Shown: piece after piece, positions 31,696 through 34,311 of the stretch
Numbering within the stretch: position 1 is the first letter of the stretch
Layout: each line of letters begins with the position of its first letter
Source: Ilumatobacteraceae bacterium
GTDB taxonomy: Bacteria > Actinomycetota > Acidimicrobiia > Acidimicrobiales > Iamiaceae
Assembly: GCA_025463265.1 (NCBI GenBank)
Contig: JAOBWH010000007.1
Location: forward strand, 1 to 52,600
DNA: 52,600 nucleotides
Direction of reading: 5' to 3'
The notes under the pieces: generated by a model
Seen by the model: only the letters and a program-made list of their open reading frames with translations
Database searches by the model: none
What the model was told of the DNA's origin: nothing
Translations under genes and position numbers: made by a program

Positions 31696-32670
31696 TCAGG
31701 GCGTGGCGTCGTCGTCGAAGTCCGTCTCGTCGAGGAGCCATCGCTTGCCGGTGTCGCACGTCCCGAGCGCCACGCACCACCGGCACGAGAAGCTGGGCCG
31801 GTACACGGGGGCGGCGGCACCGGTCTGGAGCAGCGCCATCCGCTTCGCCCCGTCCACCACCCGGGCCACGGTCGCGTCGAGGATCCCTTCGGTCACCGGC
31901 TCGGTCTGGGCCTCGCCCATGTCCAGGTAGAACGAGGCGATCAGGCGGGGCGGGACCCCGAGGCGGAGCGCATCGAGGAGGGCGTAGAAGCGCAGGTCGT
32001 CGCGGTGGCGGGCGTTGGGCGCGCCGGTCTTCAGGTCGATCACGACCTTGCCGGCCTGCCCGCCCTCGGGTCCGGCTGTGGCCACGCCGAGCGTGAGGTC
32101 GACCTTGCCCTTCAGCACCACCCGGGCATCGAGCAGCTCGACGTACTGGCTGCTCTCGGTGACCGGCCGCCACGCCGGCTTGAGGCGGGGGAAGCATTCG
32201 AAGAACTTCGACACCCGGTCGCCCGAGGTGGCGCGCAGCTCGGCCATCTCCGCCTCCGTGCAGCCCTGGAGGAACTCGGCCATCCAGAGGTCGGACTCGG
32301 TCAGGCGGGCGATGGCCTCGTCGACCAGCTCGAGCGGGATCGGTTCGCCGCGCCAGTGGATGCCGAGCTCGACGGCCTTGTGGGCGACGCTGCCCCGGAC
32401 GATCGGGATGGAGGGCGCGAACGGCTCGTCGAGCTCGGCCAGGTACCGGGCCTCGCAGCCGTGGACCTGCGACAGCTGGTGCTTCGACAAGACGAGCTGC
32501 TCGTCGGCGCCCAGGTCGGCGAGGACGGGTGCGAGGCCCGCCTGGAGGTCGGCGCGCAGCCGGTCGCGCAGCCCGGCGGGGAACACCGGCTTCGGCGCGC
32601 CCGCCGCGCCGAGGTCGTTCAGCGTCCGCTGCTGCGCTGGCGTCAGCTCGGGCGAGGTCGCGGTCGGCAC
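31696..32670 (-). CDS. PD-(D/E)XK nuclease with Cas4/AddB-like Fe-S cysteines
   Basis: 324 aa from the GTG at 32670 (an in-frame GTG at 32703 is possible). The RecB nuclease motifs are in order: RGSVAHKAVELG with H97, LKGKVDLTLG with D191, and VVIDLKTGAP with D212 and K214. Four cysteines are placed as in Cas4 and AddB: C72 in HGCEARYL, then C296-x2-C299-x5-C305 in FSCRWCVALGTC, predicting a 4Fe-4S cluster. It probably processes DNA ends. It is divergent from dinB and shares a 66-bp gap containing a LexA box, so it may also be damage-induced. Alone, with no helicase gene nearby. Confidence 0.85.
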   Translation of the reverse strand: MPTATSPELTPAQQRTLNDLGAAGAPKPVFPAGLRDRLRADLQAGLAPVLADLGADEQLVLSKHQLSQVHGCEARYLAELDEPFAPSIPIVRGSVAHKAVELGIHWRGEPIPLELVDEAIARLTESDLWMAEFLQGCTEAEMAELRATSGDRVSKFFECFPRLKPAWRPVTESSQYVELLDARVVLKGKVDLTLGVATAGPEGGQAGKVVIDLKTGAPNARHRDDLRFYALLDALRLGVPPRLIASFYLDMGEAQTEPVTEGILDATVARVVDGAKRMALLQTGAAAPVYRPSFSCRWCVALGTCDTGKRWLLDETDFDDDATP

Positions 32671-32722
32671 AGCGGGGGAGCGTACGCCTCCTCTCGGCAC
32701 GTGACAGCGGGACGTTTCCATG

Positions 32723-32736
32723 CGAACATGTGTTCG
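32723..32736. promoter_or_regulatory. LexA SOS box
   Basis: CGAACATGTGTTCG exactly fits the actinobacterial LexA consensus CGAAC-N4-GTTCG. It directly abuts the dinB ATG at 32737 and lies 52 bp before the nuclease start at 32670. Confidence 0.9.
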
Positions 32737-33939
32737 ATGCACGTCACCGCCACCGCGTCGATCATCCACGCCGACCTGGACTCGTTCTACGCGTCGGTCG
32801 AGCAGCGCGACCACCCGCACCTGCGGGGCCGGCCGGTGGTCGTGGGCGGCGGGGTGGTCCTGGCCGCCAGCTACGAGGCCAAGGCCATGGGCATCTCCAC
32901 CCCCATGGGCGGCCGGGCTGCCCGGAAGCTGTGCCCGGACCTGATCGAGGTGCCGCCGCGCTTCGACGCCTACGTCGAGGCCAGCAGGGCGGTGTTCGAG
33001 ATCTTCAAGGAGACCACCCCGCTCGTGGAGGGCCTGTCCATCGACGAGGCGTTCCTGGACGTGAGCGGCCTGCGGCGGGTCTCGGGCGAGCCCCGCGACA
33101 TCGCCGTCCGGCTCCGCCAGCGGGTGCGCGACGAGGTCGGGCTGGCCATCAGCGTCGGCATCGCCTGCAGCAAGTTCCTGGCCAAGGTCGCGAGCGCCGT
33201 CGGCAAGCCCGACGGCCTGCTCGAGGTGCCGCCGGGGACCGAGCTCGACTTCCTCCACCCGCTGCCGGTGGAGCGCCTGTGGGGGGTGGGCCCGGTCACC
33301 GCCCGCAAGCTCCACGAGCGCGGCATCACCACCGTCGGCCAGGTAGCCGAGCTGCCGGAGCCGTCGCTGGTCGGCATGCTCGGCGCCGGCTCGGGGCGCC
33401 ACCTGTTCGCCCTCGCCCACAACCGCGACCCTCGCCGCGTCGACACCGGCCGGCGGCGCCGCTCCATCGGTTCGCAGCAGGCGCTCGGTCGTGGACCCCG
33501 GTCCACCGAGGACCTCGACGCCGTCCTCATCGGCCTGGTCGACCGGGTGTCGCGCCGGCTGCGCAAGGCGGACCGGGTGGGCCGGACCGTCGTGCTCCGC
33601 CTGCGCTTCGGCGACTTCACCCGCGCCACCCGGTCCCACACGCTCGTCGAGGCCACCGACGAGACGCTCGTCCTCCTCCAAGCCGTCCGTCGGCTCCTTC
33701 GGGCGGAGGTGCCGCGGCTTCGCACCGACGGCGTGACCCTCCTCGGCCTGTCGATCACCAACCTCCAGGACGCCGGCGCGATCCAGCTCTCGCTCCCGTT
33801 CGACGGGAGGGACCGCCGCCAGCTCGACGCCGCCCTCGACCAGGTCCACGCCAGGTTCGGCAAGGCCGCCATCGGCCGCACCACCCTGGTCACGCGCCCG
33901 CTGCGCCCCGAGGCGCCGCGCCTCCCCGGCCACGACTGA
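32737..33939 (+). CDS. dinB: DNA polymerase IV (Y-family translesion polymerase)
   Basis: 400 aa from the ATG at 32737; an alternative ATG at 32728 lies within the LexA box. Y-family signatures: IIHADLDSFYASVEQRD with D13, ASYEAKAMGI, and GLSIDEAFLDVS with the catalytic DE pair; helix-hairpin-helix LWGVGPVTARKLHERGI; and little-finger domain to the C-terminus, where IQLSLPF is a beta-clamp-binding motif. It copies past damaged bases. The LexA box at the start codon shows SOS control. Confidence 0.96.
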   Translation: MHVTATASIIHADLDSFYASVEQRDHPHLRGRPVVVGGGVVLAASYEAKAMGISTPMGGRAARKLCPDLIEVPPRFDAYVEASRAVFEIFKETTPLVEGLSIDEAFLDVSGLRRVSGEPRDIAVRLRQRVRDEVGLAISVGIACSKFLAKVASAVGKPDGLLEVPPGTELDFLHPLPVERLWGVGPVTARKLHERGITTVGQVAELPEPSLVGMLGAGSGRHLFALAHNRDPRRVDTGRRRRSIGSQQALGRGPRSTEDLDAVLIGLVDRVSRRLRKADRVGRTVVLRLRFGDFTRATRSHTLVEATDETLVLLQAVRRLLRAEVPRLRTDGVTLLGLSITNLQDAGAIQLSLPFDGRDRRQLDAALDQVHARFGKAAIGRTTLVTRPLRPEAPRLPGHD

Positions 33940-33987: not shown

Positions 33988-34311
33988 ATGGAAAGCCCGT
34001 CCCTCCAGTTCGCCGCCACCGTCCGCACCCTGGGTGCCGCTGCACGAGAGCGCGGCCTGGTCGTGCCCGGCTTCCGCTCGCCACCCCGCCGTCCCGGGGC
34101 CGAGCGAACCGTCCGGCGCACCGCCGATGGTGCGGCGACCATCGCCGTCGCCGTCCGGGGCCGTCCGTTCCAGGCGGTCGTGGCCGACCTGATCGAGGGG
34201 CTGGTCCTGATCAACGAGCTCGACGGCCTCGCGGCCACCCGCGTCCGCACCGCCCTGTGGGAGGCCGTGGTCGAGGCCCACGCCGAGGCGGCCTGGCGCG
34301 GCGCCGCCTAG
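33988..34311 (+). CDS. small conserved hypothetical protein
   Basis: 107 aa; GGAG lies 3-7 nt before the ATG. The sequence ARERGLVVPGFRSPPRRPG followed by a repeated-strand segment (TIAVAVRGRPFQAVVADLIEG) suggests a compact alpha/beta protein. Coding bias is strong. It follows dinB by 48 bp and precedes the tRNA. No function recognised. Confidence 0.7.
   Translation: MESPSLQFAATVRTLGAAARERGLVVPGFRSPPRRPGAERTVRRTADGAATIAVAVRGRPFQAVVADLIEGLVLINELDGLAATRVRTALWEAVVEAHAEAAWRGAA

Follow-up and report, generated by a model that had tools for sequence, protein, structure and literature searches.

In an Ilumatobacteraceae genome, the 14-bp operator for LexA that precedes dinB appears to double as the core promoter of the gene it represses. 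In the arrangement that we propose, the TG preceding the box and box bases 2 to 7 (GAACAT) would form an extended -10 element, and RNA polymerase would initiate at the last base of the box or at the next one. The start codon, GTG or ATG, begins with this base, and the dinB mRNA would therefore carry no leader. LexA and RNA polymerase would compete for the same bases; dinB would be off while LexA is bound and on once LexA is cleaved after DNA damage. A divergent nuclease gene would lie outside this switch and keep its own probable leaderless promoter approximately 50 bp away, and dinB with its operator would have been inserted between the nuclease gene and a divergent neighbour of longer standing, in an ancestor common to a few species of a single genus. 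We hold this account as a whole, in which the operator is the core promoter, dinB is leaderless, the nuclease is a bystander and dinB is an insertion, with good confidence.

The window is the complete contig C13 (52,600 nucleotides) of a 4.05-Mb genome in 204 contigs. The following features are discussed:

31696-32670, minus strand: nuclease of the RecB/Cas4-like type (PDDEXK_1) whose four cysteines are invariant; GTG 32670 is the likely start (Pfam, alignment, model, fold and profile).
32679-32684, minus strand: TACGCT, proposed -10 hexamer of the nuclease gene, 8 nt before the GTG (compare the 26 of 34 loci that have a TANNNT 6-8 nt ahead of the start).
32721-32722, plus strand: TG of the proposed extended -10 element (TG-C-GAACAT), from its frequency at dinB versus control boxes.
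32723-32736, no strand: LexA (SOS) box CGAACATGTGTTCG, which contains the proposed -10 hexamer and extends as far as the dinB start (sequence, genome counts and alignment).
32724-32729, plus strand: GAACAT, proposed -10 hexamer within the LexA box, from the frequency of T at box base 7.
32737-33939, plus strand: dinB, DNA polymerase IV (PRK03858 subfamily), 400 aa, probable leaderless start ATG 32737 (family match and geometry).
33988-34311, plus strand: small gene, the usual divergent neighbour of the nuclease gene in relatives (divergent in 27 of 41 loci), here located beyond dinB.

The LexA box is a perfect actinobacterial box, CGAACATGTGTTCG, whose last base (32736) is directly 5´ of the dinB ATG at 32737-32739; the coordinates confirm the abutment noted in the initial annotation. 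It is the single LexA box in the 66-bp region from which the nuclease gene and dinB diverge. Exact matches to CGAACNNNNGTTCG number 21 in the genome versus 0 for the reversed control, and 1273 versus 217 in 99 related genomes. Because the pattern far exceeds its control in both sets, the box is not a chance occurrence. The downstream gene matches the NF003015/PRK03858 DNA polymerase IV model over its full length (E 1.5e-189; residues 1-397 on model positions 1-398 of 399; 630 bits versus a curated cut-off of 367).

Among the boxes fetched from the same genome, others precede recA, a PHP-domain gene that is dnaE2-like by eye, an AlkB-type dioxygenase gene and HNH/DUF222 genes, and one lies upstream of a LexA domain match. 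With CGAAC-N4-GTTCG at its promoter, the sequence mark of the actinobacterial LexA regulon, and with both a LexA domain and RecA found in the genome, dinB is a predicted member of that regulon. A second dinB is located on contig C183, which has no exact LexA box. The boxes in front of the HNH/DUF222 family are numerous (loci L002, L003, L006, L009, L010, L011 and L014; assigned by Pfam for L002, L006 and L014 and by eye for the other four), and these genes often have a TANNNT 6-7 nt before the ATG. The gene at locus L004 is imuA-like by eye and had no match in a Pfam search.

The abutment of box and start codon is conserved among dinB relatives. Two samples were compared: the best 30 loci from 99 relatives at the level of the order, of which one was dropped (L073, where the alignment begins at residue 62), and 25 new loci from the 29 of 296 phylum genomes with a match at E <= 1e-95, including two loci of the same order and two of the same class. 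A box matching at least 9 of 10 positions lies upstream of dinB in all 29 assessable order-level loci and in 17 of the 25 phylum-sample loci; the remaining eight have no box of 9 or 10 of 10. An in-frame ATG or GTG touches the box (offset 0 or 1) in 40 of these 46 loci (25/29 in the order and 15/17 in the phylum sample), counts that overstate independence since the loci are related and some come from one genus. Six boxes touch no start. At neither of the two in-frame codons that follow does any of the 46 loci have an ATG or GTG, although the distance from the box to the conserved dinB core varies from 5 to 31 codons. The touching codon takes two forms. In the first, a GTG shares the last G of the box (12/29 order and 12/17 phylum-sample loci); in the second, the start, mostly ATG, lies one base later (13/29 and 3/17). 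Box-plus-ATG and box-plus-TG patterns are common and mostly not gene starts: seven of 60 fetched loci are dinB, and the 60 did not establish the fused layout for a further class of genes.

On the opposite strand, the nuclease most likely starts at GTG 32670, because profile matches begin there, the first 20 residues of the longer form have low model confidence, and the ATG that would give the longer form, 32721 beside the box, is absent in two relatives with the same arrangement (L017 and L021). ATG 32721 was therefore rejected as the start. After 16 of 50 nuclease loci were dropped (the N-terminal pattern found nothing), a TANNNT hexamer, the actinobacterial -10 motif (PMC4895711, as given in the accessible part of that paper), is located 6-8 nt ahead of the aligned start in 26 of the 34 loci left, three of them before ATC. 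The nuclease has a probable leaderless promoter of its own. dinB lies within 3 of 30 fetched nuclease loci, and a LexA box of 9 or 10 of 10 is found upstream of the nuclease in those three only; none is present in the other 27 (400 bases searched; 209 in L038, and L029 contains Ns). In the three pair-bearing species, the insertion could have had the side effect that LexA at the shared box also lowers nuclease transcription. The perfect box is compatible with such an effect, as only 52 bases separate it from the nuclease start in the window and the distances in L017 and L021 are similar. However, the core promoter of the nuclease has the box upstream of it, and most relatives examined express the nuclease gene from a region that has no such box, so that we regard this effect as unlikely. 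The nuclease is probably a bystander to the dinB switch.

The bases flanking and filling the dinB boxes are not random. TG stands immediately 5´ of the box in 36 of 46 dinB boxes versus 3 of 146 control box-orientations, and T occupies box base 7, the final T of GAACAT, in 45 of 46 versus 42 of 146; the controls include chance sites and sites chosen for a following ATG or TG. The TG tracks the abutment, being present at 34 of 40 abutting and 2 of 6 non-abutting boxes (Fisher p 0.015); in total, ten dinB boxes have no TG. A TG followed by one base and a hexamer is the layout of an extended -10 element. The last T of GAACAT lies six or seven bases before the conserved GTG or ATG, which is the spacing that leaderless transcription would need, although the hexamer is imperfect. 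No -35 element stands out: in the 46 box-aligned loci, every column between -40 and -3 stays at or below 0.53 bits. The best reading of this sequence pattern is an extended -10 promoter (TGn-GAACAT) inside the LexA operator and a leaderless dinB mRNA.

TG and T7 could instead be LexA contacts, with the promoter elsewhere and the abutment reflecting operator spacing only. GAACAT makes a poor -10 hexamer, being without the first T of TANNNT, and the central ATRT of the box could suit LexA. Against LexA contacts, the TG has no mirror image on the right side of the palindrome and is rare at other boxes, and no other conserved element is present upstream to serve as a promoter. Such an explanation is rather improbable, slightly more so than the side effect on the nuclease considered above. 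A promoter embedded in the operator agrees better with these patterns, and it is fairly likely that they mark a widely conserved SOS switch of about 20 bp, in which operator, extended -10 element, transcription start and start codon would share bases and repressor and polymerase would meet at one site.

The initial annotation recognized that the box leaves no room for a ribosome site before ATG 32737 and concluded that dinB is either leaderless or starts at another codon. The former is supported by the geometry common to the 40 abutting relatives, of which one has a Shine-Dalgarno-like 5-mer upstream and 35 have no further in-frame start ahead of the conserved core. A start at another codon, with a leader, could use GTG 32701 or ATG 32728 inside the box, both in frame in the window. 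An in-frame ATG lies inside the box in 10 of the 40 abutting loci, including the window, and one relative (L059) seems to start at it, with TACCAT six bases before by eye. However, the in-box ATG is out of frame in GTG-type loci, ATA-type boxes contain no ATG, and the family model alignment begins at ATG 32737. Another start is thus quite improbable. The geometry settles the doubt about the start codon in the window: the dinB mRNA is probably leaderless, and translation would begin at ATG 32737.

The nuclease-dinB pair is local and not conserved, which is one of the two observations that the initial annotation named as refuting its proposal. Among 99 genomes (dinB at E <= 1e-100, nuclease at E <= 1e-45), 21 hold both genes, and a hand count finds them adjoining in three (G000, G008 and G009), all of the genus of the window; G024 was not counted, as its split dinB falls below the cut-off. 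In the other 18, the genes lie at least 0.8 Mb apart on the same contig (four genomes) or on different contigs (14). The initial annotation had suggested that the pair may form an SOS-induced end-processing and translesion unit. Its observations on the abutment, the missing room for a ribosome site and the nuclease motifs hold, and a conserved, shared SOS-induced pair is not supported. Both genes do diverge from one region with one box, and the nuclease resembles end-processing enzymes by fold (AdnA, AddB and Dna2); yet the adjacency in 3 of 21 genomes, the 27 boxless nuclease loci and the position of the box beyond the nuclease -10, 52 bases upstream of the likely start, make a unit driven by one LexA box highly improbable.

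The neighbourhood in relatives points to a different history. The small gene (107 aa; no match in a Pfam search) is divergent from the nuclease in 27 of 41 loci, 18 of these with less than 300 bases from match start to match start; ten of 51 loci were dropped because the fetched piece held no nuclease match. In G009 (L186), the small gene follows dinB as in the window. In L025, another gene, MOSC-like by eye, occupies the place of dinB between the nuclease and the small gene; the single further relative from a contig scan (L076) repeats L025 in length, distances and identity, and this repeat stands within the count of 41. Insertion of dinB with its operator between the nuclease and the small gene would be the simplest history. 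In the window, the genes seen beside the nuclease are dinB and an acyltransferase gene. The small gene is also a possible functional partner of the nuclease.

The nuclease matches PF12705 (PDDEXK_1; E 3.9e-10), and NCBIfam has no model that matches it at E <= 0.01. Of the 99 relatives, 71 have a homologue (E <= 0.001), and a profile search finds homologues in 55 of the 296 phylum genomes (E <= 1e-20). The complete RecB motifs and four Cas4-like cysteines described initially are real: all 26 aligned homologues have the same residues at H114, D208, D229, K231, C89, C313, C316 and C322 (numbered as in the 341-aa long form), which gives the H, D, D-x-K and C-x(n)-C-x2-C-x5-C signature of the RecB/Cas4-like Fe-S class. 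The predicted fold agrees. Relatives of known structure came to light by fold only, as a search of solved structures by sequence returned none that was credible (best E 0.23). With a mean pLDDT of 90, the AlphaFold2 model aligns in VIA-align with AdnA (9np6_A, Z 16.1), ACE1 (9iac_B, 15.5), AddAB chain B (4ceh, 13.6), Dna2 (5eax, 13.1) and Cas4 (8d3l, 12.3) at 12-20% identity; the fold match rests on Foldseek as well. The protein shares its fold with the AdnA domain, ACE1 and the Cas4/AddB/Dna2-type nucleases and, unlike these, is a stand-alone protein of 324 aa without a helicase. The model and motifs predict a RecB/Cas4-like Fe-S nuclease with a putative 4Fe-4S cluster and putative activity.

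The nuclease promoters of relatives carry a further motif. GTC[AG][CG] begins exactly 15 bases before the -10 hexamer in 8 of 25 promoters (L029 excluded for Ns), and 0 of 3000 base shuffles reach eight at any offset. The mycobacterial motif tTGTCRgtg-8 nt-TannnT (excerpted from PMC5656591) has this spacing, and promoters of its type are PafBC-dependent according to the part of PMC6789036 available. The motif hints at a PafBC-type damage response in the order, and two tandem WYL-domain proteins of the genome resemble PafB and PafC by eye. The nuclease promoter of the window does not have the motif at this spacing: its GTCAC lies 21, not 15, bases before the -10 hexamer, six too far upstream. 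In the portion of PMC9380542 consulted, the authors report that the PafBC motif of M. smegmatis lacks conservation in S. venezuelae, which weakens a PafBC reading outside mycobacteria. PafBC damage control of the nuclease in relatives, separate from LexA, is possible.

Three same-genus species (G005, G010 and G003; loci L019, L020 and L022) have ATC where relatives start the nuclease with ATG or GTG, with a TANNNT exactly 6 nt upstream of the ATC. L020 has an in-frame TAA four codons upstream of the ATC, and its next ATG, GTG or TTG is codon 37; L022 has no start within 59 codons upstream, and L019 has a GTG 11 codons after the ATC. An AUC start on a leaderless mRNA is possible in these three loci.

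Classical SOS promoters of E. coli also place the LexA operator over the promoter, where the repressor occludes RNA polymerase, and their mRNAs have a leader with a ribosome site. Occlusion would be common to both systems; in the window, operator, proposed -10 element and start codon lie within about 20 bp. Translation of M. tuberculosis lexA starts at the transcription start (PMC2897130), which makes it, like the dinB of the window as predicted here, an SOS gene with a leaderless mRNA; compared with the accessible text of that paper, a box that would hold the -10 element and touches the start codon is described for the window only. Approximately 21% of primary transcripts in S. coelicolor are leaderless (PMC4895711, available sections). 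The excerpts of PMC9380542 list dinP of S. venezuelae together with dnaE2, and the dnaE2 box begins 68 bases ahead of the start codon; this pair and the window have in common a DinB-type polymerase of an actinobacterium under LexA control, predicted in the window. The DinB of the window (400 aa, DLDSFY with a tyrosine at the gate site by eye) can be likened, by description, to M. smegmatis DinB3 (MSMEG_6443), a 403-aa DinB with a tyrosine steric gate in the part of PMC4176160 available. Rv2119 of M. tuberculosis is annotated as a recB-like exonuclease, and its expression rose when a recA deletion strain was exposed to mitomycin C (PMC8151990, in excerpt); as a possible counterpart of the nuclease of the window it is a lead only.

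Operators overlapping promoters are classical, and actinobacteria commonly have leaderless genes; the proposed conserved fusion of operator, promoter and start is a new version of these known kinds. No description of the fused layout was found in searches of the open-access PMC literature, and it may be described elsewhere. A repressor half-site that serves as the -10 element with the start codon at its edge would be unusually compact. The nuclease and dinB also warn that two genes can share a LexA box in a single genome without forming a unit. If the proposed switch is correct, dinB would have a tight off state and no leader-based control, and single changes in the box would shift repression and promoter strength together.
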